Positions 8,901 to 29,600 of a stretch of 31,845 nt of DNA are shown in pieces. The stretch spans positions 1 through 31,845 of IMG/VR virus record IMGVR_UViG_3300035162_003914. One strand, given 5' to 3'. Position numbers and translations under genes: made by a program. Every line of letters starts with the position of its first letter. Position 1 is the stretch's first letter. The notes beneath the pieces are model-generated. The model had not been told where the DNA came from. It saw only the letters and a program-made list of their open reading frames with translations, and searched no databases. The DNA comes from a virus.

Positions 8901-11900
8901 TATTAGTAACATTACTTACATACCAAAAACTAATATCAGGATCGTTGAATGTAGTAGCAGTTTGGAACATCCATCCCATATCAGTAATAGGTGATCCTGC
9001 TGGCATTAAAATACCAACGTTTGCAATGAACTGATACGTTGGATTAGCAGTTCTCCAAGTAGTACTAGTAGGATCTGCTGCAGTATTACTTAACGGATAC
9101 AAGATGCCGCCAGCAGTACCCCAAAGAGGTTTCTCTATTGTTGTCCAATTGGTAGTTGTATTATCATCAAAGTTCGTTGGTTTTGACGCTATTAGACTAA
9201 CATCCCAACCACTAATGTCTTGATCGAATGAAGTAGCACCGCTGAACATATCACTCATATCAGTAACACTACTTACATCCCAAGAACTAATATCTTGATT
9301 GAATGCAGTAGCATCCCAGAACATATCACTCATATTAAGAACACTATTTACATTCCAAGAACCAATATTTTGATTGAATACAGTAGCACCGGTGAACATC
9401 CCAGCAGTAGTCAGAAGACTACTGGTATCTGTCCAATCTAAGGCTACACCGCCATTGTTGAATCCATTATTAGCACTGAACATACGATACATAGTAGTAA
9501 CACTACTTACATCCCAAGAACTAATATCTTGATTGAATACATTAGCGGTGTAGAACATATTATTCATATCAGTAACATTAGCAGTACCAGTTCCAGTAGT
9601 CCAAGTTAGTGCTACGCCACCGTTGTTGAATGCTTCAGCATTTTGGAACATAGTACCCATATTCTGAACACTGCTCACGTCCCAAGAACTAATATCTTGA
9701 TTGAATGCATAAGCATCGTGGAACATACTATACATATTAGTAACTGAACTTACATTCCAACTGCTAATATCTTGATTGAATGCATTAGCGTGGTAGAACA
9801 TATAACTCATATCAGTAACATTAGCAGTACCAGTAGTCCAAGTTAGTGCTACGCCGCCGTTGTTGAATAGATCATTGTTATAGAACATCCGCTCCATAGT
9901 AGTAACACTACTCACATCCCAAGAACTTATATCTTGGTTGAATACAGCTCGATAGAACATCTGATGCATATTAGTAACACTACTCACATCCCAAGAACTA
10001 ATATTTTGGTTGAATTCATCAGCATCCGCGAACATACGAAACATATTAGTAACACTACTTACATCCCAGTAGCTTGTATGCTCATCTCCGGCAAACGCAG
10101 AGTTGTCGAACATTCTTTCAAAAGATGTTGGCGGAATATCACTAGACCAACCATGATTAGGGATATAAGCGGCCCAATCGCCATTGGCACCTGAGTCCGC
10201 GACGTTACTGTTAAAATAGCTACTAGTTAAATCAGTAGGACTATTGCATGGATAGTAATAAGCCAATGCACCAATGTCGGTTTTAAGGTTTTCATTAAAG
10301 GTGGCAAAATCAGGTCTGCTTAATAAGTAAGAAGTTGCCCCAAGATCAAACTCAAAATATGAAGCTCCGGATTTGACTAATCTATTAGTCCAACCAGACA
10401 AATCTTGGTTAAAGGCAGCTGCCCCTTTAAGCATCTTAGCAAATTTATTAATCGAAGTTACAACCCAAGAGCTGATATCTTGATTGAACGCTGAAGCATT
10501 TTCGAACATGGAAGATACATCAGTAACACTACTCATATCCCAAGTTATAACGTCTGGATCATTAAATGTCGTACTATCTTTGAATAGACTAGCAAAGCTA
10601 GTAGGTTGTCCTGAAAAATAAACTCCAATAGATGGCCGGAAGGTATATCCTAAACTATAAGATGCACTAATAGGATCCTCTGTTGTATTAGTGAGAGGAT
10701 ATAACACTAAGCCAACACCCCATGTCGGAATGTTCTCAGATTCTAGAGCAGAACCTGTAGCAAAATCAGTTGGTAGTGACGGTATTATTACCGTCCCCGT
10801 CCAACCACTAATGTCTTGATTGAATGTAGTCGCGCCATTAAACATGTTATCCATGTTAGTAACAAACGACACATCCCATTCAGTAATTCTTGGATCATTG
10901 AATGTCGTATTATCTCTGAACATGCCAGACATATTAGTAATAGGTTCACTAGTAAATATACCAGTTCCAGGCACTATTGTATAATCGGGCACGTTTAGCT
11001 CTGGATCGTTGTAGCCGTCGTAAGCTACTTGCGTAGCACCATTGTAACCGTCTGTTACAAATTGATATCCTTCAGGTGCATGTGCATCTCTCCAAGCCTG
11101 CGTTGTCGGGTCTGTTGTGTGTGAATCAGATAATGGATAATAATATCGATTAGGATATCCCCACATCGGGTGTGCTATCGAATAATCGTTAGCATTTCCA
11201 TCCTCATCGGCTTTAAAGTAGTTTGCTTTAGTACCATATTGAACACGGAACAAATCGAATAATCGGTCATTAATTTCACTATCAAAATCAACAAGATCGG
11301 ACCATACATTACCATATACTAATTTTCCTGCGTCTTGTAAAGTCTTTACAACGTCATAGACTGGAATTGCAGCCAAACTAGTATTCATTCTTGAAGCGTC
11401 GATCAACCCTAAAGGGCCAACACCTAATGCCGGATCTTCAGGTGTTCCTTGAAGCATGCCAGTAAAGTGCGCGCATCTGCGTAGATCCCAATCGATTCTA
11501 TATGTCCCACCGTTGTTGAATGAAGCGCCCGCAAAAGCTTGGTACACGGTTCTAACATCAGTCATATTCCAATTATCAAGATTCTGATTAAATGCATCAG
11601 CATTCAAGAACATATATTCCATATAAATGCCAGCGCCATAATTTTTATAAACTTCTCGTCGAGCACCTACGTTCCAATTACTGATGTCTTGATTGAATGT
11701 GGCATTACTGTAGAACATCGAATCAAATGCAGATACACTACCTACGTCCCAATTGCTAATATCACAATTGAAATCGCCGTAGGCAAAGCATTCGACCATA
11801 TCACCTATGTTTGATGTGTCCCAAGTATTGAATACACTAGTAGTTCCGACTGCACCACTGTAACCGAGCCTTAAAGAACCAAACAGTGCCGGTGTATCAA

Positions 11901-14900
11901 CTGCACTATCAAAAAAGGCATCCCAGTCTCCTTCCCAGTTTTGTCTTGCTATGCGGCCAAAATTGAAGTTTGGAAAGTTTGCATCTCCCCACTGAAGAAT
12001 CTTGTTCGGCCGGAGGTAAGTAGTATGATTATTTTGATTGTTTTTAATATGAATAGATGCGCCATATATTTTTACTTGCCGAGTGCTTTTATCGGCATAG
12101 TCGTGGCTAAAGTGTGAAAGAGGCTCTCCGCTAATAGTATTGTTACTATCGTCAGGAAGCTTCCAAGGCTTTCCAAAATAGTTATCAACATTGTCAGCAT
12201 CATCTTCGTCATAAGTCTTAGCTTCTTCCAACCAAGTTATATTAGTTGAGTAATCGATAGGCGAACCGTCGCCCCAATCAATTGCTATGTAATGGCCGTT
12301 TACATCTGGCTTGCCACCTAGAATGGTCAAATTTATGCTTGTTCCCGAAGACCCGGATGGGGATTCTCCAACCTCTATTATCATTGGTGTTCTTGTCAAT
12401 AAATCTGGCACCGGAGTCCAATCTACTTGATCTGTCACGTCTTCGTAAGCAACAGTCCAACCCCCATACTCGCCTCCCTGCCAATAATATATCGTAAATT
12501 TATATACATGTTCGTCAGTACGACATAAAAGATACCTGTGCCGATTAGTATTCTCGGCTGTCATTTCGCCCCAAGAGCCCCACGGTTCCGTGTGATCCCA
12601 CTGAAACCAATCGTACCACAGCTTCTCTGTTAAACAATTTTCTATGTTGTCCCAGCCTATAGCCCAAGAAGTCCCTTTAATCAACTTCGCGTAATCGCCT
12701 TCGTCCAGCTTATCATCATCTCCGGTCCAAGAAGGATACGCATTGTATAGTGGACCGTTATAATTTCTAATAATTACTATGCCGGGTTCGAGTGCAAGTC
12801 GAGAGTTCCCAGCTTCGCCGAAGTATTCATCGTCCATCCGAAGGTATTCAGTCGGCCCTGATTTGAAAACCGTAGCTTCTGGCCAATCTCTTCTAATATC
12901 GTCAATAGTGATGGGCTTACCAAGAGCCCCGATCGTTTCATCCTCCTCGCGGGTTGGATTCCGATTTGAATAACCGTAGCCTCCCATCATGTTCACATAA
13001 TAAGGATAAGTGGACCACCTATAATCTACAATATCATGTACAAGCTGTCGGTGATATCCTTCTCCTTTGCCTATCTCATCACCTGCCATCATGCCATATT
13101 GTAACTCAGTATGTGGTGTTTGAGTATGTAAAGAAAAAACGCGATAGAAGGATTCAATACCCGGTGACTCATAGTCATCTTCAAGTTGACTCCTATCTAA
13201 GAAACTAGTCAAGTTCCAATCTTGCGCGCTCCAAGTCCGGGCCGCGAGCGCTGATCGAGCAGTGGAATAACTAGACAAGCGAAATATATCATCAAACCCC
13301 GAGACTTTACTAGTATCCCAGTTGCTTAAGTCCCTTCGCATCCTGTAAGCATCGTAGAACGCAGAACTCATATCAGTAATATTACTTACATCCCAAGAAC
13401 TAATGTCTTGGTTAAATTCGGGGTTGTCCTCGAACGTGGAACTCAGACTAGTAACTCTACTAATATCCCAATTCCCAACGCCTAAAGGTGCGGCAGGATC
13501 TCCCACGATCTCGTAATCAGGCATCGTAAGGCTCCACGCGCCTTTAGATAATTGGCCCGAGCCATCTGCGGAACCGGATGGATCGTTAAAAATGAATCTT
13601 ATCTGGTGATCCGTATTGAGACTTGTTAGATCGCTTGGAGGCGGTTCTGCTGATGTAATTGCAAACATAGAACCGGCGTTTCGTGCAATGGGTGGATCAA
13701 GCGAAGGATTACTATCGCCTACGGTGTCATCATAATTTTCAAGTATAACATCATATAATGCTTTATCCGATTCATAAAAAATAACAGACCACTTTAGTTC
13801 ACCGTAGTAGTCTAGGTCAGATGCATCTATAGCGGTAAGGTCATACAAGTATTTTTGAATATATCTTGCGCTGACAACAAATTTTCTGTTGGGAGCGGTG
13901 CCGGTTTCTATTGTTTTGAGGTCGGCCAATACTGTTCCGCCTCCACCACCGCCAAGATATATCGTAGGGCCCGATACTTCATCTTCATTATCTTTTATGT
14001 AAGACCACCTTTCGGTAGGTGTGGTCAAAGCGGTAGAACTTCTGACATTGTTTTCGTTATTGTGTATTCCACCAAAATTAATCTTAGAAGAGTTTCCAAC
14101 CCAGAAAGATTTAAATTGCGCCTCATTGCTAAAGCCAGCAATGTCTATAGCCCAAGGAGCTACTACTATGTAATTGCCGGAACGATCATAAATAGCTGTT
14201 GAAGTCGGGTAAAGGGGGTAAACAATAGGATCAGTAATTACTCTATAAATTATAGTTTTACTGCTGGGGTCTGCCTCAATGTCTGACAGCTCTGCCATTT
14301 TAGTAGTGTAGAAAGAATCTTCGTTAGAAAGTGATTGTTCTATAATTCTGTTATTAGGACTTTCGACGAAAGGTACTGTCTGCAAGACATTAGTATTTTT
14401 AAAGGCGCTGTCCAAAGTAGTCACATAACCGGTTTTCCAATTAGTTACATCTATTGGAGCATTTCCTGCTGCCAATGGCTCACCCGCGAACATATCCTCC
14501 ATGCTGACGATAGGACGAGTAGAAGTTATCCCTACGGTAGCAGTAAATGTATATCCTGCTGGTGCTCGCAGAGGATTGCTATTCCACAGTTCAGACGTTG
14601 GATCAGTGAGCATTCCCGGCATAGGATATGTAAAAATCCCATCGACTGCGCCGAATTTAGGCTGTATTGTTTCAGTCCATTGAAAGGCCGCGCGAGAAAA
14701 ATTAATAGGAGGCCCAATGAATTCACTAACGCTCCAGGCAGTCAAATCTTTATTAAACTGCGTATTATTTTGGAACATGCCGTCCATATTTCTAATATTA
14801 GATACATCCCAACTAGAAATATCTTCATTAAATGTGGTGTTAGCAAACATATTAGCAGTGTTAGATACACCACTCATATCCCATTTGGTAATGTCAGCTT

Positions 14901-14910
14901 TTAATGGCAT
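5971..14910 (-). CDS. Giant DUF285/BspA-type repeat protein (2,979 aa)
   Basis: This is an enormous repeat protein placed between gp15 and gp16, where T4 has nothing. I count about 55 copies of a roughly 26-residue unit of the form MF-x5-FNQDISSWDVSSVTNM, the DUF285 (BspA-like, bacterial surface 26-residue) repeat known from secreted adhesins. N-terminal residues 1-150 and 460-560 carry diverged units. Residues about 150-460 and 570-860 are unique; the latter is rich in Trp, Tyr and Asp, for example WYDWFQWDHTEPWGSWGE. A PKD-like cap with AIDWGDGS lies near residue 875. From about residue 1,280 onward the units become nearly uniform. A linker P-x-WGT-x-LYPL-x-DPTS recurs about eight times, and the protein ends inside one copy (RPAWGTDGT). 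The start has AGGA 7 nt upstream of ATG, 4 nt after the gp15 stop. Role inferred: a virion surface or collar adhesin. No enzyme motif was seen. Confidence 0.9.
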   Translation of the reverse strand: MPLKADITKWDMSGVSNTANMFANTTFNEDISSWDVSNIRNMDGMFQNNTQFNKDLTAWSVSEFIGPPINFSRAAFQWTETIQPKFGAVDGIFTYPMPGMLTDPTSELWNSNPLRAPAGYTFTATVGITSTRPIVSMEDMFAGEPLAAGNAPIDVTNWKTGYVTTLDSAFKNTNVLQTVPFVESPNNRIIEQSLSNEDSFYTTKMAELSDIEADPSSKTIIYRVITDPIVYPLYPTSTAIYDRSGNYIVVAPWAIDIAGFSNEAQFKSFWVGNSSKINFGGIHNNENNVRSSTALTTPTERWSYIKDNEDEVSGPTIYLGGGGGGTVLADLKTIETGTAPNRKFVVSARYIQKYLYDLTAIDASDLDYYGELKWSVIFYESDKALYDVILENYDDTVGDSNPSLDPPIARNAGSMFAITSAEPPPSDLTSLNTDHQIRFIFNDPSGSADGSGQLSKGAWSLTMPDYEIVGDPAAPLGVGNWDISRVTSLSSTFEDNPEFNQDISSWDVSNITDMSSAFYDAYRMRRDLSNWDTSKVSGFDDIFRLSSYSTARSALAARTWSAQDWNLTSFLDRSQLEDDYESPGIESFYRVFSLHTQTPHTELQYGMMAGDEIGKGEGYHRQLVHDIVDYRWSTYPYYVNMMGGYGYSNRNPTREEDETIGALGKPITIDDIRRDWPEATVFKSGPTEYLRMDDEYFGEAGNSRLALEPGIVIIRNYNGPLYNAYPSWTGDDDKLDEGDYAKLIKGTSWAIGWDNIENCLTEKLWYDWFQWDHTEPWGSWGEMTAENTNRHRYLLCRTDEHVYKFTIYYWQGGEYGGWTVAYEDVTDQVDWTPVPDLLTRTPMIIEVGESPSGSSGTSINLTILGGKPDVNGHYIAIDWGDGSPIDYSTNITWLEEAKTYDEDDADNVDNYFGKPWKLPDDSNNTISGEPLSHFSHDYADKSTRQVKIYGASIHIKNNQNNHTTYLRPNKILQWGDANFPNFNFGRIARQNWEGDWDAFFDSAVDTPALFGSLRLGYSGAVGTTSVFNTWDTSNIGDMVECFAYGDFNCDISNWDVGSVSAFDSMFYSNATFNQDISNWNVGARREVYKNYGAGIYMEYMFLNADAFNQNLDNWNMTDVRTVYQAFAGASFNNGGTYRIDWDLRRCAHFTGMLQGTPEDPALGVGPLGLIDASRMNTSLAAIPVYDVVKTLQDAGKLVYGNVWSDLVDFDSEINDRLFDLFRVQYGTKANYFKADEDGNANDYSIAHPMWGYPNRYYYPLSDSHTTDPTTQAWRDAHAPEGYQFVTDGYNGATQVAYDGYNDPELNVPDYTIVPGTGIFTSEPITNMSGMFRDNTTFNDPRITEWDVSFVTNMDNMFNGATTFNQDISGWTGTVIIPSLPTDFATGSALESENIPTWGVGLVLYPLTNTTEDPISASYSLGYTFRPSIGVYFSGQPTSFASLFKDSTTFNDPDVITWDMSSVTDVSSMFENASAFNQDISSWVVTSINKFAKMLKGAAAFNQDLSGWTNRLVKSGASYFEFDLGATSYLLSRPDFATFNENLKTDIGALAYYYPCNSPTDLTSSYFNSNVADSGANGDWAAYIPNHGWSSDIPPTSFERMFDNSAFAGDEHTSYWDVSSVTNMFRMFADADEFNQNISSWDVSSVTNMHQMFYRAVFNQDISSWDVSSVTTMERMFYNNDLFNNGGVALTWTTGTANVTDMSYMFYHANAFNQDISSWNVSSVTNMYSMFHDAYAFNQDISSWDVSSVQNMGTMFQNAEAFNNGGVALTWTTGTGTANVTDMNNMFYTANVFNQDISSWDVSSVTTMYRMFSANNGFNNGGVALDWTDTSSLLTTAGMFTGATVFNQNIGSWNVNSVLNMSDMFWDATAFNQDISSWDVSSVTDMSDMFSGATSFDQDISGWDVSLIASKPTNFDDNTTTNWTTIEKPLWGTAGGILYPLSNTAADPTSTTWRTANPTYQFIANVGILMPAGSPITDMGWMFQTATTFNDPDISFWYVSNVTNMAGMFYRANAFNQDISSWNVSNVTDMSYMFWFALVFNDPAVSSWDVSAVTTMRGMFRSALLFNQDISSWDVSNVTRMDSMFYNADVFNQPLNSWNVSSVTNMAGMFNRAYAFNQDISSWNVTKVIKFLAMFYSATAFNNGGVALTWTTTGPLTETAAMTALYGTSYTNYPNTDSYDDPQIFAYMFEGCTSFNQDISTITPYGFVEEMLGRTPAFNNGGVPLTWDMQYVTFADQMFSQIGVSAGIFNAAGVGNWNMSNVQNLGSFFTNQGAFNQDISGWNVANVQFMYNLFEDCTSFNQDISGWNVSSVTNMIQMFDGATAFNQDLSGWDVLAASVAAFNSTPPTDFDTNATAWVLSRPLWGTVPDYSTRAYTYALTSLTDPTSANWTTKPAGYTYYPGEGIGANAPITDMSQMFNGASTFNEDISFWDVSSVINMGTMFQNADAFNQPIGSWNVSSVTDMSRMFYSADAFNQDISSWNVSSVTNMNDMFFYATAFNNGGVALTWTAGTGTANVTNMNAMFYNADAFNQDISSWDVSSVDTMQNMFNANSGFNQDISSWNVSSVTDMSYMFYQATSFDQDISSWNVSLIASEPTNFDTSTLTSWTTLEKPGWGTSGGILYPLSNTATDPTSTNNTWRNANPTYQWIANVGILMPAGSPITSMEQLFTFNTTFNDPDISSWDVSTVTNMQRMFDGASAFDQDISSWNVLAASIAPGNSTPPTNFDLNTPVTWITAEKPGWGTDGTILYPLTGATDPTNSTWRSAYAPASYVYDTTPGAEGIRVKWNEPITNMQSMFFFKSFNQDISSWDFSTVTNMYGMFYGATAFNQDISSWDVSSVTDMQSMFYNADAFNNGGVPLTWTTGTGTSNVIDMNTMFYGADAFNQDISSWDVSSVTNMDTMFSSAVSFNQDISSWDVSSVTDMRYMFYNAYVFNQDLSGWNVLAASVAPGNSTPPYRFDLNATAWILPDSRPAWGTDGT
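6926..7185 (-). repeat. Long direct repeat, copy 1
   Basis: This segment of about 260 bp matches 8984-9237 with only scattered differences and one two-codon indel. A 35-base run starting at 6935 is identical to one starting at 8993. It encodes the linker GSPIT preceded by the VGILMPA, YPLSNTA-DPTS and SLIAS-PTNFD segments. The copies are offset by 2,058 bp, exactly 686 codons, so recombination between them would stay in frame. Confidence 0.85.
8984..9237 (-). repeat. Long direct repeat, copy 2
   Basis: This is the partner of 6926-7185, in the same orientation and the same reading frame of the giant repeat gene. It bounds one complete super-module of DUF285 units plus linker. Confidence 0.85.
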
Positions 14911-14914
14911 TAAA

Positions 14915-16195
14915 TTATCCTGTATTCTTAAACATGTTTGAAGTATCTATGACGTTTGAAATATCCCAATTTGTTAATGAAGATGCTTCACCGGTGAAAT
15001 TAATGCAGTCTTCAAACATAGAAGACGTGGAAGATCCCGGCAAGAAATTAGGTTCATTAGGAGCAGTAAGTGTTACTAAATTTTCATTTCCTTTGAACAT
15101 TTCTACAGCACTTGAGAAGGTAGTGTTTTCACCCCAATCTATAACATCTATTACACTGGAGTCAAATTTGATATGAGCTCCTGCAAACACTAGTTTGATG
15201 TCTGCTATACCAGTGCCAGTGTATGTATGCGTCAGCACCGTATTAGCTGTCCCACCTGATATAGAAGTGGGTTCATTAGATCCATCTCCCCAATCAACAT
15301 CAAACTGCGTAGATAAGAAGCCAGATTGAGGTACGGTAATTGTTATTGTATTTCCAACCATTAAACTCTTATCGACTCGGACAATCATTTCATTGCCTCG
15401 ACCAATTTTCTTGATTACTCCGTAATCATCATCAAAGTTAATAAGAGAAAGGTCAACACTATCTTGAATTAACGTAGTTGGGCCACCTGCCACTGTTAAA
15501 CCTGGTTGGAATGATAATTGCTCTTCGAATTCTGTATTGATAGGTGTATCTGTAGCAATATCCAAATCGATAAACTTGATGACCTTCTTCTCGCGTTCGG
15601 GGCCGAAGTACCATGCTTTCATTGTAAAATTCAGAGTCCACATTATAGTGCGACTTTCCGTGAAAGCCCCCTCGTAGATCTCCTCACTAGACACACTATT
15701 CAAAATGAGAGGAATGTCCAAAGGATCTAGGCCATCCACGATGGTGGCCGTCTGAGTCATATCTGGATTAAAGAACGGCACGATTTGCTCAACCAACTGT
15801 ATGGCGTCTTCGTTATATTTTGCCATGATATAGAGAGAAAACTCCATATTATAGGGAGCACCAGCATAATGAAAGTTTCGTGAACCTGTATCTCCATCAC
15901 CGATTGTTTTTCTAATTTTACGAGTAGGTGATATTTTTCTTTCGGGATCGAAGGTGTATCCAGAAATCTCAAAAGACATTCTAGGTAATGTGATCTGAAC
16001 CCCTGGCTCTCTATCTGTTTGTGTGGCTTGTGCCAACACTTTTTGCCATGGAGCGTAAGAAATAGGGACAATCATCTGCTGGACGGTGACACCCTGATTG
16101 TCGACTCTCTTTACCATTAGCTGGTTGAAGTATGTGCCGAATAAAGCTACATATTTTCGAGTAGTCTTATTATAGAAATAATTAGCAATTGACAC
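14915..16195 (-). CDS. 15: gp15 tail terminator with C-terminal DUF285 extension
   Basis: Residues 1 to about 268 are the tail sheath stabiliser/terminator gp15, which caps the sheath and tube and joins the tail to the neck; T4 gp15 is 272 residues in total. Family features include FYNKTTRKYVALFGTYFNQ at the start, SYAPWQKVLAQ near 46-56, YNMEFSLYIMAKYNEDALQ-like text near 115-132 and FTMKAWYFGP near 190-199. Residues about 270-426 are extra: a PKD-like cap (QFDVDWGDGS near 297-306, VIDWGEN near 351) followed by the first DUF285 repeats (NWDISNVIDTSNMF, 409-422). The GTG start at 16195 has AGAGGT upstream and lies 1 nt after the gp14 stop. The frame stops after MFKNTG, while the DUF285 pattern continues in the next gene, four bases on and one frame over. 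Confidence 0.92.
   Translation of the reverse strand: MSIANYFYNKTTRKYVALFGTYFNQLMVKRVDNQGVTVQQMIVPISYAPWQKVLAQATQTDREPGVQITLPRMSFEISGYTFDPERKISPTRKIRKTIGDGDTGSRNFHYAGAPYNMEFSLYIMAKYNEDAIQLVEQIVPFFNPDMTQTATIVDGLDPLDIPLILNSVSSEEIYEGAFTESRTIMWTLNFTMKAWYFGPEREKKVIKFIDLDIATDTPINTEFEEQLSFQPGLTVAGGPTTLIQDSVDLSLINFDDDYGVIKKIGRGNEMIVRVDKSLMVGNTITITVPQSGFLSTQFDVDWGDGSNEPTSISGGTANTVLTHTYTGTGIADIKLVFAGAHIKFDSSVIDVIDWGENTTFSSAVEMFKGNENLVTLTAPNEPNFLPGSSTSSMFEDCINFTGEASSLTNWDISNVIDTSNMFKNTG
14918..15388 (-). other. PKD-like cap and first DUF285 repeats fused to gp15
   Basis: This domain-level feature covers gp15 residues about 270-426. DUF285 proteins commonly begin with a beta-rich WGDG-containing cap and an IxxWG strand before their repeats, and both are visible here. 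A second cap of the same type occurs inside the giant gene around 12,030-12,300, so the combined system looks like two concatenated BspA-type modules. Confidence 0.75.
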
Positions 16196-17668: not shown

Positions 17669-17697
17669 TTGACAAGTGGCAAGAAGTATGTTATAAT
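17669..17697 (+). promoter_or_regulatory. Consensus sigma70 promoter, antisense to the operon
   Basis: TTGACA (17669-17674) and TATAAT (17692-17697) are both perfect consensus boxes with the ideal 17-bp spacing on the plus strand; initiation would be near 17704. All genes around it are on the minus strand, so transcripts would run antisense into 17806-19655. No plus-strand gene with a convincing start follows it. It may make an antisense RNA or be a relic of an early promoter. Confidence 0.55.
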
Positions 17698-19278: not shown

Positions 19279-19655
19279 TAAGCAGAGAACCCAACTGCAG
19301 AAGCTCTTGTTGTATCGTCACCCCATCTCACTATGGAAACATGCCAATACCTGTAATTAGACCAAGTTGGTTCCTGACCTTGCGGCCATGCATCAACCCC
19401 AGACCACGTTGGAGCATATCCTGCAGCACCTCTGTCTAAAAGAACCAATACAGTGGACCCGGCGCCGATGGGATGCGTGACTGTAGCAGTTGCGGCTACG
19501 GTCATGCCCCAATAGATCAATGACGTTCCGAAATCAATCGATGGTGCACTGCTGCTCGAAATTATCGGTTTTAAGTCCGAATAACTTAGATTTTTGAGTG
19601 TGGGTAAAGTAGATACGTTATCGATAACTACTGTTCCGGCTTCTGAGAATGCCAT
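19278..19655 (-). CDS. Unknown small virion-like protein (125 aa)
   Basis: No family is recognised. The product is a compact beta-type protein with an N-terminal polar segment (about 1-45, ending in a run of four serines, ISSSSAPSIDFG) and a hydrophobic, Trp-rich second half (SLIYWGMTVAATATVTH, TWSGVDAWPQGQEPTWSNYRYWHV). It has its own perfect late promoter 32 nt upstream and an AAAGGTC ribosome site. It therefore starts a short unit with the 247-aa and 235-aa genes. Its position between the sugar cassette and gp13 suggests a tail-associated component; this is inference from context only. Confidence 0.72.
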   Translation of the reverse strand: MAFSEAGTVVIDNVSTLPTLKNLSYSDLKPIISSSSAPSIDFGTSLIYWGMTVAATATVTHPIGAGSTVLVLLDRGAAGYAPTWSGVDAWPQGQEPTWSNYRYWHVSIVRWGDDTTRASAVGFSA

Positions 19656-19686: not shown

Positions 19687-19694
19687 TATTTATA
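19687..19694 (-). promoter_or_regulatory. Late promoter (TATAAATA) before the 125-aa gene
   Basis: The minus strand reads TATAAATA exactly, 32 nt upstream of the start at 19655. It overlaps the stop codon of the cupin gene (TAA at 19690-19692), so promoter and coding sequence share bases. Confidence 0.8.
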
Positions 19695-20031
19695 AACGCT
19701 CGATATCATCCTCGTTGCAATCCTCACCATACTGTATTTCTAGTACCAAAAGCTCTTGGTTAGTATCATTTCGAAGTTGATGCCAATGACCAACTGGGAT
19801 GTCAAATCTATCAAACATTTGCATATGAACTGTTGTCAGAAAATCCCTATGCAACCCAAACCGGACAGTTGCATCACCACGAACAACCATCCATTGTTCA
19901 CTTCGATATCGATGTCTTTGTAGACTGAGTGATTTCTGAGGCTCCACGAACAATTCTTTTACTTTGACCGTAGCTGTTTTTCTCTCACTGAGCTCGTAAA
20001 AGACATTATAAGCTCCCCACGGTTTATTCAT
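19690..20031 (-). CDS. ManC-type cupin (mannose-6-phosphate isomerase domain)
   Basis: This small cupin corresponds to the C-terminal isomerase domain of bifunctional ManC/AlgA proteins, which interconvert fructose-6-phosphate and mannose-6-phosphate for GDP-mannose synthesis. From the ATG at 20031 it has 113 residues and contains only this domain, not the guanylyltransferase part. Family hallmarks are the opening NKPWGAY, then SLSLQRHRYRSEQWMVV (about 34-50; metal-binding His and Glu), DIPVGHWHQLRN (about 77-88; further His ligand) and the terminal EDDIERL. An upstream ATG at 20043 would add four residues, but GGTGG just upstream favours 20031. The start overlaps the methyltransferase gene by 8 nt. 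Stand-alone cupins of this type may bind or epimerise nucleotide sugars, so the exact substrate is open. Confidence 0.88.
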   Translation of the reverse strand: MNKPWGAYNVFYELSERKTATVKVKELFVEPQKSLSLQRHRYRSEQWMVVRGDATVRFGLHRDFLTTVHMQMFDRFDIPVGHWHQLRNDTNQELLVLEIQYGEDCNEDDIERL

Positions 20032-21250
20032 AAAACCACCCATCAGTAATATACTTGCCTTGTTCTGAGACTACTTTATTGTATAGCTCACCATCAAGTA
20101 ACGGCAAATTTACCCAGACATCTTCCAAACCAGTTTTGTGTGGAGTTGGAGAGGTGTTTATTGATTCTGCCAGTAAAGTATAACCATTCTTTCTCATCCG
20201 AGTTTTATATACTTCTCTTTCTTCACCAGAAATTTGCCTCATACCGAAAGTCACTATTCTGAATTTATATTCAGAAAAAGGTATCTTTTCCATCACCAGC
20301 TTCATTGAATCAAAACCATGGTCGACCTGCAGGTAATCAATAATCAACTCGGAGCCAGAGTACTCTAAGAAGTCCGTATAGTCAATCGACATAGGATCTT
20401 TGCAAATGAAGCCGTTTTTACGAATCTTTTTGTGTTCGATGGAAACACGAGGATTTTTCTCTATCGTCGTCCCTGTCCACTCAAAATCTTTTTCTAGCAA
20501 ATAAGTATTGTTTAACCTATCACCAAAAAGAGCACCGATTTGCAGATAGGTGCCGTTTCTCTTTCCCTTCAATAAAGACAGTACAATCATGTCTTGCAGA
20601 CGCCTGGAATAATTTTTGTCGATATATTCAAGGCCTGGGAAATCTATTTTCCAATTAGAGCATAACGATGAATTATATCTAATATTTTGAGGATATCCAT
20701 GCTCTAAAAGTAAATCATCAAATTTCTTTAAGTATTCGGGATCTTTATAGCCATTGTACCATGTTTTTGCTTCAAATGTCTTTTCTTTTGATTCCTCAAT
20801 CCCTCTTATCTTCCAATCGGCAAGCGCATCAAAATATAGCAACCCAAAGCGGCCTGGGTATTTGCAGTCAATATCATCTGTGGGCTCTTCACACAAGAGG
20901 CCGGAAGCAGCATACATGAAAGCTCGTTTCCAATGTGACTTTTCAACGCACCAACTGCATAACCAATACCATGCTTCAGGTCGATCTGGTCGAAGTGCAA
21001 TAGCATTCTGTAGGATTCCCTCAACAGTTCCAGTTCTACGCCCTAGTCGATGATACATGATGGCCATACGCAACAGACAAGTGTACTGGAGAAGTGTATC
21101 TTCCCATTCATTATCAGCACATCTAAGATAGAAAGGTACTGCTGCAGCACACTGGCCTCTTTTATCATATTCAGTTGCTAGTGCAAATAATTTTGCGGTA
21201 TCGTGAACATCCTCTAAGTGTTCATGCAATCGACGTGTTAACTCTAACAT
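20024..21250 (-). CDS. TPR-domain and FkbM-type methyltransferase fusion
   Basis: This 408-residue protein (from the ATG at 21250) has two parts. Residues about 10-130 contain helical pairs of the tetratricopeptide type (KLFALATEYDKRGQCAAAVPFYLRCA, then TVEGILQNAIALRPDRPEAWYWL), a protein-interaction scaffold often fused to sugar-modifying enzymes. Residues about 215-385 resemble FkbM-family SAM-dependent methyltransferases: the glycine-rich segment TYLQIGALFGD, then NNTYLLEKDFEWTGTTIEKNP, where the acid near residue 264 would bind the SAM ribose, and the later YLQVDHGFDSMKLV. FkbM enzymes O-methylate sugars or other small groups. The start is chosen because it lies one base after the stop of the upstream gene and has GAGG 10 nt upstream; a 15-residue extension would lie inside that gene. 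Confidence 0.82.
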   Translation of the reverse strand: MLELTRRLHEHLEDVHDTAKLFALATEYDKRGQCAAAVPFYLRCADNEWEDTLLQYTCLLRMAIMYHRLGRRTGTVEGILQNAIALRPDRPEAWYWLCSWCVEKSHWKRAFMYAASGLLCEEPTDDIDCKYPGRFGLLYFDALADWKIRGIEESKEKTFEAKTWYNGYKDPEYLKKFDDLLLEHGYPQNIRYNSSLCSNWKIDFPGLEYIDKNYSRRLQDMIVLSLLKGKRNGTYLQIGALFGDRLNNTYLLEKDFEWTGTTIEKNPRVSIEHKKIRKNGFICKDPMSIDYTDFLEYSGSELIIDYLQVDHGFDSMKLVMEKIPFSEYKFRIVTFGMRQISGEEREVYKTRMRKNGYTLLAESINTSPTPHKTGLEDVWVNLPLLDGELYNKVVSEQGKYITDGWFYE

Positions 21251-21251
21251 G

Positions 21252-22295
21252 TTAAAAAATCCTCGTTTTATCGACATATGACATAAAATCATCAAACGGC
21301 ATTTTCAATAAGAATGTCGCTGCATCAGCTAATCCGTAAGATATTAATATGCTTCCATTATGAAGAGCAACTCCTGTTGCAAATTCAATCCCATACTGGT
21401 GACCATTGTCTGCAAAAGTAGTAAGCCCCATAAAGTTAAACTGCTCACTCGCCTTAACTATATTCCAGTCATTGTCCCATATAACTACTCTGTGAAGATA
21501 TAGACCATCTTTTCGCACATGCGCATCTTTTCTTAATTCAACTTCGTGAGTTATAGCCATTCTGTGATTTGCATCAATTCGAATGACTTGAGTCCCGCCT
21601 CGGATATCTCTAGGAAAAGGATACTTCCTGTTATCTTGGCACATTACGGTGTATGATTGCTGAGTCTCTATGTCATACTTAACGACCTCTGTCGGATTAG
21701 TCCACTTAACAAAGTGCCATGGCATATCCAAAACTGGCATCCAATTTTTTTCACAATAAGTGTCACTATCGTTAGGAGCCTTAATAGGATTTCTAGAAAC
21801 TTCTCTCCATTCGTTATTGATATATTCAATTTCGGCCATTTCCATCCGACCAGTACCCTTGTCATCATAACAATCTCGGCGGACACCACACAAGAATAAA
21901 CGGTCTTCCCATTCGACAAGACGGCCATCTTCTAGTCCTATAAAATTCCAAGTTGGTTTGCCTGTATCAAAAGCCATATTTACTTTTGAAAAGCTTTTGA
22001 CATCAAGAGATTCGTCTAATTCGCAGACATAGTTATCTGTTTTTAGAGTGACATCATTTTCTGGATGTATGTACTGGAGAGGACCGTAAACATGTGGGAA
22101 CCTTTTACCTTCGCTATGATATAAGGCGTAATTCACCTGCCGGATGTTAAAAATAATTTTACCTTTGTGGATCAGAATAGATGGATTCATCTGCCCTGTT
22201 TCTGCGGTCTCTTCTGGTGGGAGAAAAACAGGATGCAAACTGCCTCCCCTCTTCACGGCCCAACTAGCTAACCCGCCATAGTATAACTCGTGCAT
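21252..22295 (-). CDS. GH130-like five-bladed beta-propeller protein
   Basis: This 347-residue protein resembles the beta-propeller glycoside phosphorylase/hydrolase families related to GH130, which act on beta-mannosides. Motifs seen: QMNPSILIHKGKIIFNIR (about 35-52), the family-like NFIGLEDGRLVEW (about 117-129) with its acidic ED pair, EKNWMPV (about 182-188), RGGTQVIRI (about 232-240) and the closing ISYGLADAATFLLKMP (about 318-333). These repeat with strand-rich spacers consistent with five blades. The ATG at 22295 is preferred over a GTG at 22301 because GGAG is five bases before the ATG. It ends one base before the methyltransferase gene. Whether it is catalytic or a glycan-binding propeller cannot be decided from sequence; such genes are found with tail genes in other marine T4-like phages. 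Confidence 0.78.
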   Translation of the reverse strand: MHELYYGGLASWAVKRGGSLHPVFLPPEETAETGQMNPSILIHKGKIIFNIRQVNYALYHSEGKRFPHVYGPLQYIHPENDVTLKTDNYVCELDESLDVKSFSKVNMAFDTGKPTWNFIGLEDGRLVEWEDRLFLCGVRRDCYDDKGTGRMEMAEIEYINNEWREVSRNPIKAPNDSDTYCEKNWMPVLDMPWHFVKWTNPTEVVKYDIETQQSYTVMCQDNRKYPFPRDIRGGTQVIRIDANHRMAITHEVELRKDAHVRKDGLYLHRVVIWDNDWNIVKASEQFNFMGLTTFADNGHQYGIEFATGVALHNGSILISYGLADAATFLLKMPFDDFMSYVDKTRIF

Positions 22296-22334: not shown

Positions 22335-22673
22335 TTACCAAGGTACTTTTTGGACTTCCCTTGGGGCTCTATTATATTCGATCAATAGCCTTCTGTCAAT
22401 CTCTGACAACTCTTTTTCCGACAACGAATCCGAGACCCACTGAGTCACATGTTCATTATACAAGTCACCGTATGGAATATAGTCGTTTTGATCTGTGTCG
22501 AGAGAAGAAAGCTTAGTTTTGCCTACAAATTTACATTCGCGTTCGTCTGGCCCCTTGATCATTCTATTCCAGTGGACGACACGAACAGACTCTTGGAACC
22601 AAGCCCCTTGGAAATTTAGTTCGGGGCTTGTTTCGAGTTTAATGATATTCCAAGAATAGTGTTTGATGGACAC
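22335..22673 (-). CDS. Small protein paralogous to its upstream neighbour (112 aa)
   Basis: The function is unknown. The central region DERECKFVGKTKLSSLDTDQNDYIPYGDLYNEHVTQWV (about 43-80) can be aligned with the 158-aa protein encoded just upstream (the segment FFGGTPFTAESLGTADFVPF-ADLTEEMVMGWI), and both continue into an acidic/basic helix and a short PW motif at the end of the shared part (VPW here, LPWNP there). The start codon is GTG and shares one base with the TAG stop of the upstream gene, so translation is coupled. The short size, charged helix and tail-operon setting suggest a virion accessory or fibre-assembly protein, without direct evidence. Confidence 0.78.
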   Translation of the reverse strand: MSIKHYSWNIIKLETSPELNFQGAWFQESVRVVHWNRMIKGPDERECKFVGKTKLSSLDTDQNDYIPYGDLYNEHVTQWVSDSLSEKELSEIDRRLLIEYNRAPREVQKVPW

Positions 22674-23149
22674 TAGTCAGTGTCTACCGTGGAGTCAGGA
22701 TCAGGACCAACCTCGTCCTCGCCGGGTTCTGCCGGAGCAGGATCAGGATCAGGTTGATCCTCTACCATGTCGGGACCACCATGCAACAGAGGAGCGGTAG
22801 GATTCCAAGGCAAGTGCTCTTCTCGTTCCACACCTGTTGCTTCCTCAATCTGAACCATGATGCGTTCTTTAATGTGATCCAGATAACCAGGCATCGAATT
22901 GATGTAGCCCGTGATCCAGCCCATTACCATCTCTTCAGTGAGATCTGCAAAAGGAACAAAATCTGCAGTGCCTAGAGACTCTGCTGTGAAGGGAGTTCCT
23001 CCGAAAAACGTTGCAGTGTTACCGTCTTCATCCACACCCTTTGCATTCCAGTGAGTTTGAACGATGGCATCAGTTAATGTAACGCCATCTGCATTAGTTT
23101 GATTCCGTACCTTTAACGATAGGACTTCATAAGTCATTGTTAGGGCCAT
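22673..23149 (-). CDS. Conserved phage hypothetical protein (158 aa)
   Basis: This protein is of a kind often seen beside tail-fibre genes in marine T4-like phages; its function is not known to me. The opening TYEVLSLKVRNQTNADGVTLTDAIVQTHWNAKGVDEDGN is a beta-rich half, followed by the conserved FFGGTPFTAESL and a helix ITGYINSMPGYLDHIKERIMVQIEEA (about 79-104). The C-terminal 40 residues form a low-complexity acidic, proline-rich tail (DPDPAPAEPGEDEVGPDPDS). Ribosome site GGAGG lies 7 nt before the ATG and a seven-of-eight late promoter octamer is 32 nt upstream. The next gene encodes a shorter relative that lacks the acidic tail. Confidence 0.82.
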   Translation of the reverse strand: MALTMTYEVLSLKVRNQTNADGVTLTDAIVQTHWNAKGVDEDGNTATFFGGTPFTAESLGTADFVPFADLTEEMVMGWITGYINSMPGYLDHIKERIMVQIEEATGVEREEHLPWNPTAPLLHGGPDMVEDQPDPDPAPAEPGEDEVGPDPDSTVDTD

Positions 23150-23684: not shown

Positions 23685-26600
23685 TTATATATTCTCCAAT
23701 AATTTATTTACCATAATCTTCAATTCATCAATTTGCTCTTGTTGACTATTTATGATATCTTGTTGGCCTTTGATTGCTTCGATGAATAGTCCGCCCATCT
23801 TACCATAATCCACACCGTATTCATCTCTATCTTCGGCGTAAGTAACAACATCTGGAAAATGTTCAAGCACTTCCTGTGCAATGACACCAGACTTTCTAGC
23901 ACTAGCTTCTTCAAGTGTTATGTGTTCTCTCTCAGCAACTTCTTCTGGATCTTTGAGCGTATAATAGACTCCTCTCAAGTTCAATAAGATATCCAGAGCT
24001 CCATCGATAGTATGGATATTCTCTTTCTTCCTACGGTCTGAATAAGCCACAATATTACTAGTAGCATATATAGCGCCATTGACATACATAGTATAAGCTG
24101 AAGATGTTGCGCTTGTCCCAACGCCCTGGCAGAATCTATCCCACACCCAGTATTGAGACCACCCTCGATCTTGCCAGTATATGCCCCCAGCACCTTGGCG
24201 CCCGCCTTGGAACATGAGATGAGGTCGTGCAGTGACCTGGGAAAAAGCAAAACCATACCAACCGTTTCTATTACCAAGGATGTTCCAAGAACCATAACTT
24301 GTTGATTGGTTGGGGTAGATGTGACCCCCGTTTGTATCCGTATAGAACCCAGATGTATTGGTTTTCATCCAAGTATATTTGTATGAGTAACCGCTAGTAC
24401 CGTTGATCTGGAATCTAAGAGCACTGCTGTTGTAATCCGAGTAGAACCGCATGCCCTCATAATTCTGGTATGCAGCAAACTTCAGGCCAGTATGGTACTG
24501 GAATACCGTATCGGGGTAAGGATAGGACCACCCCCCGGTTTCTTGAAAGCCCCAACGATAAGGTTGACTTGATCTGGTGATGCCTGAGTTACCGCCAGGA
24601 TAAGGATTGCCGTATGATCCATAGGCGTCGATGTTCTGAAAGCGGGAAGTGCCGGCCCAAAGAATTCTATACTTTGGGTTATTATAATCGTAGGCCGATG
24701 CAAACCGGAGAACTCTCCTAACATATGTATCACCGGTCGAATAGTAATTAAGGTATAGCCCGTAGCCCCCTGCGCGAGCATCAAGGTGCAGATTGCCGTT
24801 CGTGACTGCCACTGATGCATATGAAGAAGAAAATCCTTGGCGGCCGTTTGTACCAACTGCTAAATAAGCTCCCCAAGTTAAGTTAGGACCATATAATGTT
24901 CCAGTTCGGAATCTACTTCCATATGCACTTGAGGTAGAATTTAGATCTAGATAATAATTTGCATCGCTAGCATCACGGAAAATATATGCCCGAGAATCAC
25001 CAAGCGTAAAGTTGTATGCGTATCCAGCGTTCTGCTGAAGATATTGACTTAATCGGCCGCCATTAGCAGTTGTTCCATAATAGCTTCGGATATATGAAGT
25101 ACCATTATTACTATTCGTGTCAACTCGCAACGTGATGTCGGCATACGAGTTTATAGACATGTTGTCGTTGAATGCGCCGGATGAGGATGTCGACGCGATT
25201 CCATGATTGCTATATGAATTATAATTTGCATTCCAATCAAATGATATGTAAGAAATTCTATGCAGACTTGATGAATACGTACCATATCTTCTAGCGTAAC
25301 CGTTAGCGGATGATCGACCAAGATAGATGATGTCTGCATAGACCGTCGGTGCTCGCAGGAATGAATTAACCTGATATCGCCAGAAGGTAGAACCCGATGT
25401 TGGCCGTACTTCTCCAGTATAGAAAAGTCCATTATAATTATACACGTATGAAGTGGAGACAGACCTTAATGCCCAACCCCCACCTTGGTTCAAAAATCCG
25501 ATACTTGGTGCGGTATCAGTGTAAACATATCCTCTTGTGGTGGTGTTTCCAGTTTGGAATCGGATGTACGAGGAGGTTGACGGCGTGGCAAGAATCATTC
25601 TATTACTGCCGTCGGAATACCAATTGACTCCTGTAGCAGAGTTTCTCAGTCCCCGGCTGGTTGCGTTATTAATGAACTCGCCATCATTATCAATAGTACC
25701 ACGGACATCCAAAGATCTCACTATGGAAGTACCGTTAAAGTCTCCGTAAAAATCTGAGTCGTTGCTGTCGTAATAACGTTCCGCGTAAATACCCACACCA
25801 CTGATATTAACCTGGCCATAATGAGTTGTAACGTCGGAGTTTCGATCATACAGCATCAACCATCTGGAAGGATTTAATCTATAAACACCCCAATATCTTG
25901 CTCGTCCCAGATGGATCCTTGACGCGCCGCTGTTATAACCGTTAGACATTATTACATATGAATTCGAATGTGCATAGCCGTTCCAGCCGCTTCTGCCGCT
26001 GACACCGTAAGTCGCTACGTTGCCATAAGGACTTGCCCCGGCAGACTCTCCGCCCGAGGATGTAGAACCGGCCCCTGCCGCCCAAATTCCTGTGCCATAA
26101 GATTGGAAGTACACACCTGTCCTGCCAAGGGGTCTAAACCAATTGCGGGCATATACAGCGCTCAAATAGGAGCTGCCGTTCAAGTCGAGATAATAGTTGC
26201 CGGGATCATTATAGTCTTCCCATCTTACAGCGGCAATACCGGAGGAATTAGGTATATCTACCCGAGCTCCTCCTCGGATCTTAACCCTCCAATCATCTGC
26301 GTTATTCTTAAGCCCAAAGTCATTGGCGTTATTTGCTTCGATCCACCCTCGCGCGATGTTAGACGTGGTAGTGAACAGCATCTTATTATCAGCTCGAACC
26401 GAATAAACTCTCCATCGGTTAATAGCGTCTGAGTAAAAATGCATCGCATTTGCAGTGTTATATAAACCACGACCATTGGTGTCATTGCGGAACCAACCAT
26501 CGTTATAGATTTCACCACGGTTATCAATGTTGTTCGTTATAGAAGTAGAAGCAAAATCTCCGTAGTAGGTACCGTTATTACTATCGTAAAATCGTTGTGC

Positions 26601-29600
26601 GTATGTGTATCTGGTGGTGAATGTATCGCCATTGCCTCTAATGAGGAAGTTGCTCGTGCCACTAAGACCACCATCTCTAAATACTATATCTTCATTACCT
26701 GATGTAGCAATAATTAAGTGAGCATCATCTGTATCGGTAGCTTGAATATAACCCCGTAGATTACCAGCAGCGGTGTAAAATCTTGCCTCTGCGCCGACGT
26801 TAAATCTGATATCGTCATCGATATTAATGCTAGACATGACCGATCTAGAAGCCATATCAACATAGTAATTACCATTGTTGTTGTCTCGAAGTATCGGGGC
26901 ATATACAGTCTGATCGAAGCCTACATACCCTAGAGTATTATTAATATACCCGCCGTATGTTAATTTGAATGCTTGGGTTGGATTGGAATCACTACCACCA
27001 ATTGCCATGTACCAACCTGTTTGCGCATTCCCCCAACCGCTTGGGACTTTATACAAACCAGTACTGACATGAGTCCTGTAACCCGAATTATATAACGCCG
27101 TTTGGTGTGTCAGTGGTAAGTATGCAGCGGTCGTGCCGATATTATAATCTCGGTTTCTTGTCGAGATTGGAGCATTTGTCAGTCCACTCGGATCAGTAGC
27201 ATCATATTGCTGAACATCATCTACATAGAAAATTCCATTAGCTGTAAATGTTCCTGCCGTATTGAGACCAACGATGTTCGAAGTAGCATTGGGATCCATG
27301 TAATAAGTTGGATCATCCAAATCATAGAATCTTTTCGCGTATATACCGTTTGAACCGTAGAATCTTGACTCAGTAGTATTTGTCTTGACAGCAGTCGAAC
27401 CCCAACTACTAAATCTGTAACCATGATTATATCTTACTTCATAGTCGTTAGTATCGAACATGCCGGTAGACCAACCGGTACGACCAGTTGAGAAGTAACC
27501 AATACTAGGTCTGTCACTGTCAGTGCCGGACTCAGTTACAAATTCAGCAACTAGGCCGTAAGAATGATTTCCTCTTTCATGTGAAAAACGAGCAGTAACA
27601 TTATTGCCTGGAGCGCTGCCAGTTTTTCTGACTTGGAAGATCCGAGCTGCAGATGTTGATTCGACGTTGAGTCGAGCCAATCTTGACTCAGCACCAAAAT
27701 CACCGTAGTAATTAGGGTCGTTAGAATCATAGAATCTTGGAGCATAGAAATTGCCAGGAGCAGTGATTCGCATGTTGCCCCAGCCAATGTCTCTACCGAG
27801 GAACAAGTCATCAGTCCCATCATAGAATATTGCTGAATTTACTTCATCTGCAGAATCGTGTAATGTCATTTCCCAAGTTTCAGAGAAATTTGCATGAATC
27901 CCAGATCGAATATCAGAAGCCCATGTGCCATCTGCAAAGTTGTAGTTTGTATCAGTACGGCCTATATTCAAAGCACCCGGCTGTAGGTTGCCGACTGCAT
28001 AATTAGAGTTACTAATCTCACCGTAGACTCTTATTGATGTATCGCCGTTACCGTTGAAATAGTAAGTGGGGTTATTTCTATCATAGAAAATATTTGCTCT
28101 TACATCATTCAGGTAAGATGTGGAGGCCGGATCAAGATAGTAATTAGTAGGATTGGCCCTATCTCTGAATATATTTGCAGTAATCTCATCTGACAGGATA
28201 TCATCAGCTTCCAGATCATCGACTAATAAATTAGATTCTGCATTACGGCGTTTGAGCATGATCCCGCCGTATGCTCTATTTGCGTAAAGTCCAGTGCCAT
28301 CTGGATAGTTCATCAAGACGCGAATTCTTACATAGTGAACGCCAGCGCCATCCGACACGCCTTGCGGACCATTATATGGTGCATGAGAGGTTGGGATTGT
28401 TGTGTGCCCACGTCTTGTTTCCCAGCCTGTATTGCCAGCAATCTGTCCGCCTCGAACAAAGTAATCGCAACCAGCGTTGGTAGCGATTGGAAGTTTATCT
28501 TTATCAAAACGTTCGACACCGTAATATGTTCTGCCCCGCGGAGAGCCAGAAATATACTTCTCTGATATTTCCCCATAGATTTCCTCACCCGGAGCTACTG
28601 GAATGTAGTCTGAGTAAAATACTCTATAATTGCTTACTGTCCATGCCTTGCCGGCAAATGGTGAAACTGGATCTTCATAGAAGTTAGCACCAATATTATT
28701 ACTCTCATTGGATTGCAATACATACCCAACCTCTGCTTCGGAGTATGTGGTAAAATCAAATAATACGAGATCAGCACCACCAGAACCATAAGCAGGATTG
28801 AGCGAGATGTTGGAAGCAGGGCCGACAATATTAAAGTTATCTGCATAGACCTCACCATCAAAGAAAGCATCACCGGTGTCGAGATCAATAGAAGCTTTTA
28901 CATTTCCAGAACCAACAAACACCATTTCATTCGGATTAGTTGTGCCGAAATATGAATATGATGGATTATCATTACCCGCCCAGAAGATACCCCAATTAGT
29001 CGCAGTGTTCCAGACCCAAGAAGAATAGTCTTGAGCAACGAGGAATTTATTATCGTCACCACCACCAGTAGTATTGAAATTAGATCTTACAATCTGGCCA
29101 GTCATCGACAACTGCGTTTCAGTATTTCCAGTACGATTGGGATAGTAATAAGCCGAGGTGTTGTTTGTGCCGTAATAGATCGGCGCGCGCATCTCATTGT
29201 CTGCAGTGAAGTAACCGTTTCCTGTTTGTGCCTGTTGAATCCCGTTATAGTATAATAATGTTCCTGCGTTTCTATACCATTGTTGCATCCACTCATTGTC
29301 GAGATCATTATAGATTCCGACTCTTGTGTTGTCGACAGACATGAAGACATATCGACCATTGATCGAATAACCTTCCCAGCCACCCTTACCACCACCATTG
29401 ACTTGGATAGAGCCATAATCGCCTGTAGGATAATCTATATAAATCCCAGTGTTATTATCGTAGGCAGGATAGATCCTATTTGCTCTCAATACATTAATTT
29501 GAGATGTCCCAGCAGGATCTACATATCGTGTAGTAGGAGTGGTTGTGTCTCTGAATATCGGAGATCGAATTTCGTTGTTAGCTAGGAAGTATCCGTCTGC

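Follow-up and report, generated by a model that had tools for sequence, protein, structure and literature searches.

Why does a T4-like phage carry three apparent sugar-modification genes among its tail genes? The question is raised by the IMG/VR virus record IMGVR_UViG_3300035162_003914, of which positions 1 to 31,845 were analyzed. This 31,845-base virus contig (the window) holds the structural region of a marine T4-like phage, and its genes are read from the minus strand. At positions 19690 to 22295 lies a cassette of three genes, predicted to encode a GH130/GT108-fold propeller protein, a TPR protein with an FkbM-like methyltransferase domain, and a ManC/PMI-type cupin. We tentatively regard the cassette as a glycan-building or glycan-capping module within the fiber-to-neck "host recognition" island, with the phage's own tail-fiber protein as the likeliest of its possible targets.

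Organization of the cassette

All three genes lie on the minus strand in the order propeller, TPR-FkbM, cupin. The propeller gene runs from an ATG at 22295, with GGAG immediately 5' of it, to a stop at 21252. After a gap of 1 nt, the TPR-FkbM gene extends from an ATG at 21250 to a stop at 20024, and the cupin gene (ATG at 20031, with an alternative at 20043; stop at 19690) overlaps the end of the TPR-FkbM gene by 8 nt. The 1-nt gap and the 8-nt overlap make translational coupling of the genes likely. Because order and strand are conserved in >100 loci, the arrangement is not due to chance. PADLOC returned no match for the cassette as a defense system. The original prediction, made by a model from the DNA letters alone, had given the right coordinates for these genes and had described their close packing by 1-base gaps and overlaps.

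The propeller protein

The first gene (21252 to 22295, minus strand) encodes a five-bladed propeller protein of 347 amino acids whose predicted fold is clearly GH130/GT108. Sequence evidence by itself is weak, and the assignment was made because the AlphaFold model (pLDDT 82.7) matches known structures. The top 44 PDB matches retrieved by Foldseek were all GH130 or GT108 proteins, the first being the mannoside synthase Uhgb_MS (E value of 7e-10), and VIA gave Z scores of 24.2 for GH130 (5ay9), 18.1 for GT108 (6q4x), and 17.5 for the best GH43 structure. No direct sequence match to solved GH130 structures was obtained with either a single sequence or a profile, and no hydrophobic N-terminal signal was found in the propeller sequence.

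Across 32 phage homologues, the alignment shows N37, R52, E122-D123-x-R125, R150, K183, H250, and D324 to be invariant. A mixed MAFFT alignment of phage propellers with true GH130 proteins from bacterial genomes placed N37 on the GH130 motif FNP, E122-D123-x-R125 on EDPR, R150 on the Arg of RIALA, H250 on YHG, and D324 on AAD. The Asp of the GH130 E-D motif is an invariant catalytic residue (PMC4599007). Judged from these alignments, the propeller keeps catalytic residues of the GH130 type, namely, D123 of E-D-x-R together with N37 and D324 of the -1 subsite. R150 and H250 align with GH130 basic residues; the invariant K183 was not placed on the GH130 Lys by MAFFT. Phosphorylase-type GH130 enzymes have three basic phosphate-binding residues, to which R150, H250, and K183 may correspond.

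The phage propellers thus have in common with the GH130 and GT108 families of CAZy (beta-mannoside phosphorylases, mannosidases, and Leishmania mannosyltransferases) the five-bladed propeller, the E-D-x-R motif, and the Asn and Asp of the -1 subsite. They differ in having only ~12 to 15% identity to these families, in carrying EDGR, EDAR, or EDCR in place of EDPR, and in an invariant C-E-K-N-W motif of their own. In addition, they are structurally nearer to uncharacterized giant-virus proteins. When Foldseek was run against viral models, the much stronger matches were giant-virus proteins, some of them annotated as fucosyltransferase, LicD, or WcaK-like; the phage propellers therefore seem to belong to a branch of the GH130/GT108 clan that is rich in viral proteins. 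A distant homologue (25 to 28%) was also observed on a Bradyrhizobiaceae chromosome (L092:7659-8573).

The TPR-FkbM protein

The second gene (20024 to 21250, minus strand) encodes 408 amino acids comprising a TPR domain (approximately residues 1 to 190) and an FkbM-like methyltransferase domain, as judged from the model, profile searches, and relatives. The TPR half matched a consensus TPR in a PDB profile search (E value of 8.5e-18), and the model combines this confident half, with pLDDT mostly >90, with a Rossmann-like half. For the C-terminal half, Foldseek retrieved the methyltransferase Bud23 (E value of 2e-4, TMt of 0.56 to 0.62); VIA retrieved only TPR proteins for the whole-protein model. 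Among the structural matches of the TPR half are the protein-glycosylating enzymes OGT and SPINDLY. A TPR domain is joined to a sugar-modifying enzyme in both these proteins and the phage protein, although the catalytic domains are unrelated and the match is confined to the TPR part.

Of 34 close relatives, 11 match the FkbM family (PF05050) at E values up to 0.1 (best, 5e-6), and the match is strong in distant members. While the C-terminal domain of the relatives' TPR proteins matches FkbM methyltransferases, here that domain follows a TPR domain, and the window copy has neither the acidic residue of S-adenosylmethionine (SAM) motif I nor a Pfam match. In the window, GAxxG is retained as in other FkbM proteins, and Q237, L241, V378, and N381 stand in place of residues kept in 32 to 33 of 34 members (W378 and H381 being the conserved states at the last two positions). 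Because motif I and the W378 and H381 positions are altered, the activity of the window FkbM-like domain, as predicted from its sequence, is uncertain. Synonymous divergence (dS) between the window and locus L003 was saturated, so dN/dS gave no measure of selection.

The third gene

The third gene (19690 to 20031, minus strand) encodes a ManC/PMI-type cupin of 113 amino acids that matches PF01050 with an E value of 5e-20 and 72.3 bits, above the 23.6-bit cutoff. In the alignment, Q38, H40, E45, and H84 are kept, and the Q-x-H...E...H pattern, whose residues are presumably metal ligands, is invariant in 29 members. A CTP_transf_like nucleotidyltransferase is joined to the N-terminal side of the cupin in 26 of the 29 dereplicated sequences (PF01467 plus PF01050). 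The best NCBIfam match of the relatives' nucleotidyltransferase is RfaE domain II (TIGR02199; E value of 3e-22), with scores of 76 to 80 bits that lie under the equivalog cutoff of 181.5 bits; the domain is absent from the window. Cupin-only third genes occur in the window, L003, L004, L014, and their closest relatives, and L026/L027 and L118 are without a third gene. In L069 (10288-10638), a phosphopantetheinyl-transferase-like gene (PF01648; E value of 2e-11) was observed between the TPR-FkbM and nucleotidyltransferase-cupin genes.

Compared with the known families, the cupin scores above the Pfam cutoff for the ManC/PMI cupin and the relatives' nucleotidyltransferase fits RfaE/HldE domain II best, but the fusion of the two is distinct from each parent. 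Unlike in ManC, the phage cupin is not joined to a guanylyltransferase, and the window has the cupin alone. The bifunctional ManC architecture is absent, with the cupin covering only positions 361 to 461 of the 467 of TIGR01479. The link to sugar modification drawn in the original prediction stands; the sugar may be mannose, but relatives add an RfaE-II nucleotidyltransferase domain of manno-heptose type. Loss of catalytic residues from all three proteins, which would have weakened the prediction, was looked for and not observed: E122-D123, N37, and D324 of the propeller are invariant, and the metal-ligand-type residues of the cupin are kept.

Conservation in close relatives

A propeller query found 230 IMG/VR stretches, of which the best 80 loci were kept. 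The TPR gene adjoins the propeller gene in all 80, and a recognizable third gene is present in 72, with most of the remainder being contig ends. Querying with the TPR protein gave the same picture, the propeller being adjacent in all loci but one, itself a contig end. Together with the retained propeller and cupin residues, this near-total co-occurrence supports the predicted sugar-modification cassette in the tail region, and the proposed check for co-occurrence in other phages did not refute it.

As a test independent of the cassette query, loci were also retrieved with the neck gene; this set was not dereplicated, so near-identical contigs are counted, and L183 (6.5 kb) was left unclassified. 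The cassette was present in 14/14 loci with neck identity of ≥65% and ≥7 kb upstream and in 0/19 loci with neck identity of ≤54%. Taken together, the neck-gene test and the co-occurrence indicate that the cassette is a core trait of the clade, within which its order is nearly invariant.

Seven loci (L038, L041, L045, L054, L055, L058, and L065) have a conserved coiled-coil-like open reading frame of ~77 amino acids between the propeller and TPR genes. Some relatives have a 214-nt gap that, given the phosphopantetheinyl-transferase-like gene in L069, was suspected of holding an acyl-carrier gene; this was rejected, since it contains a small coiled-coil-like open reading frame instead. A GH130 search of the metagenome-assembled genomes (MAGs) behind the bacterial matches found none. 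Most of these bacterial matches belong to the same phage module or to other virus-like contigs, which left no usable bacterial gene-cluster context.

A wider family with exchangeable modules

With a profile of distant members, the propeller family was found on at least 592 viral contigs. Among 80 divergent loci, a TPR protein directly follows the propeller in 63 of the 76 with room for one, mostly with an overlap of 8 or 4 nt. The N terminus of this TPR protein is the conserved part and the C-terminal module is variable: among 49 partners, FkbM (n = 17), GT25 (n = 11), GT2 (n = 10), and DUF6445 (n = 9) were the most common C termini, followed by GT7C (n = 6), GT17 (n = 5), WavE (n = 3), and radical SAM (n = 3). 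At L001:12959-15109 and L091:1651-5493, TPR partner or neighboring proteins combine FkbM, radical SAM/SPASM, or GT25 domains.

Upstream neighbors (n = 65) include collagen-like proteins (n = 13), S74 fibers (n = 8), and tail assembly chaperones (n = 5), and their PHROG names are chiefly tail fiber and virion structural. GT2, GT17, FkbM, radical SAM, terminase, and neck genes occur among the downstream neighbors. In cyanophage DSL-LC02, the propeller/TPR pair lies within a fiber cluster on the other strand, and in S-SCSM2R, it follows a baseplate/tail-pin gene. These two phages and the divergent loci show that the link to fibers recurs across different genomes.

Promoters

A perfect sigma70 consensus promoter, TTGACA-N17-TATAAT, lies on the minus strand at 22371 to 22399, in the 3' end of a DUF7936 gene and 76 to 104 nt before the propeller ATG; the site is thus within coding sequence. 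We scanned 130 nt upstream of each gene in 28 dereplicated relatives, counting as sigma70 type any site with at least 11 of 12 consensus positions. Such a site precedes the propeller gene in 12 of the 28 relatives and is perfect (12/12, 17-nt spacer) in 9; perfect sites occur in 1.9% of random 310-nt stretches. The same 130-nt scan found neither a sigma70-type site nor TATAAATA, a motif of the T4 late promoter type, ahead of the TPR gene (0/28) or the third gene (0/27). The original prediction that no promoter separates the genes is therefore literally true, although the sigma70 site at 22399 to 22371 had been missed. Some sigma70-like sites inside the relatives' TPR gene fall where the conserved peptide IDNSEALCYN is encoded, and these were left out of the promoter count.

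The TATAAATA motif stands at the end of the cassette (19687 to 19694, minus strand), 32 to 39 nt before the next gene, which begins at 19655. In the window, it precedes the gene after the cassette, the neck gene, and the sheath gene, and its number in the window alone is at the level of chance; in the 28 relatives, it occurs 69 times on the coding strand and 9 times on the other. It also precedes the propeller gene in 3/28 relatives. These positions do not support the proposal of a co-expressed late function: the window and the 12 relatives have a sigma70 site ahead of the cassette, and the T4-late-type motif of the window appears only after it. From its promoter sequence, the cassette could probably be transcribed by host RNA polymerase independently of late transcription.

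Similar sigma70 sites precede other small genes in relatives and are not unique to the cassette. L006, L007, L024, L066, and L075, among others, have perfect sigma70 promoters before g6 and DUF7936 homologues. Across 359 kb of the clade's structural region, 26 perfect sigma70 promoters point in the coding direction and 6 in the opposite direction, some of them inside coding sequence. The window itself has a second perfect TTGACA-N17-TATAAT promoter with an extended -10 element (17669 to 17697, plus strand), which lies in the gap before the neck gene and is directed against the tail operon.

Genomic setting

On the minus strand, the window encodes an S74-type long fiber, small genes, two DUF7936 genes, the three cassette genes, three small genes, and a gp13-like neck protein (PHROG head-tail adaptor Ad2), beyond which lie more neck and tail genes and then sheath, tube, and portal genes. 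The cassette thus sits between fiber and neck genes, as it does in relatives. The long fiber-like protein (23685 to 31595, minus strand) has a C-terminal Peptidase_S74 chaperone (PF13884; E value of 3e-13) and is a candidate acceptor of the modification. The two DUF7936 genes (22335-22673 and 22673-23149, minus strand) lie ahead of the cassette in nearly all close relatives; they are neighbors without demonstrated membership in the system.

In sheath protein, the window is closest to cultured phages of Sinorhizobium (43%), Stenotrophomonas (42%), and Pelagibacter (40 to 42%), and no close DNA relatives of the window were found in the phage collection. Two of these phages, Sinorhizobium phage phiM12 and Pelagibacter phage Mosig, have different genes at the cassette slot. 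As a weak hint, L084, L086, and L088 carry the same phage module on three contigs that are all binned in one Rhodobacteraceae MAG, which would be either a clue to the host or a binning artifact. Elsewhere in the window, a gp15/neck-region gene (14915-16195, minus strand) has ~160 additional residues with DUF285-type repeats at its end and is followed, in another frame, by a gene for a 2,979-amino-acid protein with 19 DUF285 repeats (5971-14910, minus strand). The two look like a single repeat protein divided by a frameshift or an error.

Proposed function and alternatives

In the mechanism that we propose, the cupin, together with the fused RfaE-II-like nucleotidyltransferase in relatives, would help to supply a manno-configured activated sugar. 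The GH130/GT108-fold enzyme would then take the sugar from either a sugar phosphate or a nucleotide sugar and attach it to an acceptor, working in the synthetic direction by analogy with GT108 enzymes and mannoside synthases. The TPR domain may bind the acceptor protein or the propeller enzyme and so position the exchangeable C-terminal enzyme (FkbM-like in the window) for methylation or extension of the sugar. The cassette's own promoter would probably be used by host RNA polymerase. In this scheme, the fold, the catalytic residues, the gene pairing, the exchange of modules, the position near fibers, and the promoter sequences are observed, and we infer the identity and direction of transfer of the sugar, its acceptor, and the timing.

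Decoration of the fiber and modification of the host envelope are close in likelihood. In the latter case, which is possible but somewhat doubtful, the enzymes would alter O-chain or other envelope glycans and so block superinfection or the re-adsorption of progeny to debris. The passages on this genomic slot in PMC7029224 favor host O-chain modification, reading in this way the glycosyltransferases and rfaE of the pelagimyophage fiber-neck island. The RfaE-II-like and PMI-cupin third gene of relatives fits that reading, as do neighbors of lipopolysaccharide type (GT25, WavE, UDP-glucose dehydrogenase, and GDP-mannose dehydratase) and a sigma70 promoter suited to expression ahead of the late genes. 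However, the cassette is without a membrane, export, or undecaprenyl-linked enzyme, and the pair keeps beside fiber or baseplate genes in unrelated phages. Moreover, conservation within the partner protein is strongest in its TPR part, which hints that it binds a protein and not a polysaccharide. An auxiliary metabolic role is improbable: a cytoplasmic mannoside phosphorylase would free sugar phosphate from host glycans and the cupin would isomerize it to feed infection. GH130 phosphorylases are indeed cytoplasmic and produce mannose 1-phosphate (PMC4599007), the cupin is a PMI-type domain, and R150 and H250 occupy the positions of GH130 basic residues. Yet a constant partner that links TPR to a methyltransferase or glycosyltransferase, in a fixed fiber-neck place, is ill suited to catabolism, and no transporter or mannan-degrading neighbors occur among the families listed around the divergent loci.

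Several observations count against fiber decoration by this cassette. The fiber is nominated as acceptor by gene neighborhood, which is not proof, and the published reading of the slot points to the host surface. A sigma70-type promoter, if used, permits expression before fibers are made. For the propeller, PF04041 (GH130) was matched with an E value of 1e-4 and 21.8 bits, just below the 26-bit cutoff, and when profiles were compared with those of true GH130 proteins, only a short C-terminal stretch aligned, with weak similarity (E value of 0.003). Among the original family calls, the cupin, the propeller fold, and the TPR domain were sustained, whereas PF04041 fell below its cutoff and PF05050 gave no match for the window copy of the TPR-FkbM protein. 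The acidic residue of SAM motif I is E in 32 of 34 members, D in 1, and Q237 in the window. With this altered motif and a third gene lacking the nucleotidyltransferase, the window lineage may carry out only part of the reaction series. Outright decay or repurposing to a partly working module, with the nucleotidyltransferase lost and the FkbM motif changed, would extend this argument and could draw on the cupin-only third genes and the four substitutions described above. We consider it unlikely, since the frames are open, the coupling is tight, the propeller catalytic residues are intact, and the changed motif still reads GAxxG.

Relation to known systems

Sugar genes in this slot have been described, which removes the suggestion that the setting is unusual: the host recognition cluster (HRC) of pelagimyophages and cyanomyophages includes rfaE and glycosyltransferases (PMC7029224). 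Both the HRC and the cassette contain sugar-related genes between the fiber genes and the neck gene. According to the passages on the HRC, that region is hypervariable and nonsyntenic, whereas the cassette is nearly invariant in its clade; those passages make no mention of a GH130-like/TPR pair. In mycobacteriophages, phage genes are proposed to glycosylate virion proteins, including the tail tube (Freeman et al. 2023, as cited in PMC12619734). The enzymes described there differ from those of the cassette, and the glycans were observed, whereas here they are deduced from genes. The literature searched, which was partially covered, contained no description of a phage GH130-like/TPR pair, of the size of the propeller/TPR family, or of the RfaE-II/cupin fusion. 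Sugar genes in the fiber-neck island are thus already known, and the pair, its family size, and the fusion are apparently new.

These features could, with considerable reservation, belong to an undescribed and widespread phage glycosylation system. In such a system, a GH130/GT108-fold enzyme with relatives in giant viruses and a TPR scaffold with exchangeable modules (FkbM, GT25, GT2, GT17, and radical SAM) would build glycans on tail fibers, including collagen-like ones. To our knowledge, glycosylated phage fibers are barely known. The conserved and easily recognized pair beside receptor-binding fibers, on at least several hundred aquatic phage contigs, would make fiber glycosylation or host glycan remodeling directly testable, with a possible bearing on host range and on how phages avoid re-adsorption. 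It also provides a function hypothesis for a large unnamed GH130/GT108 branch common to phages and giant viruses.

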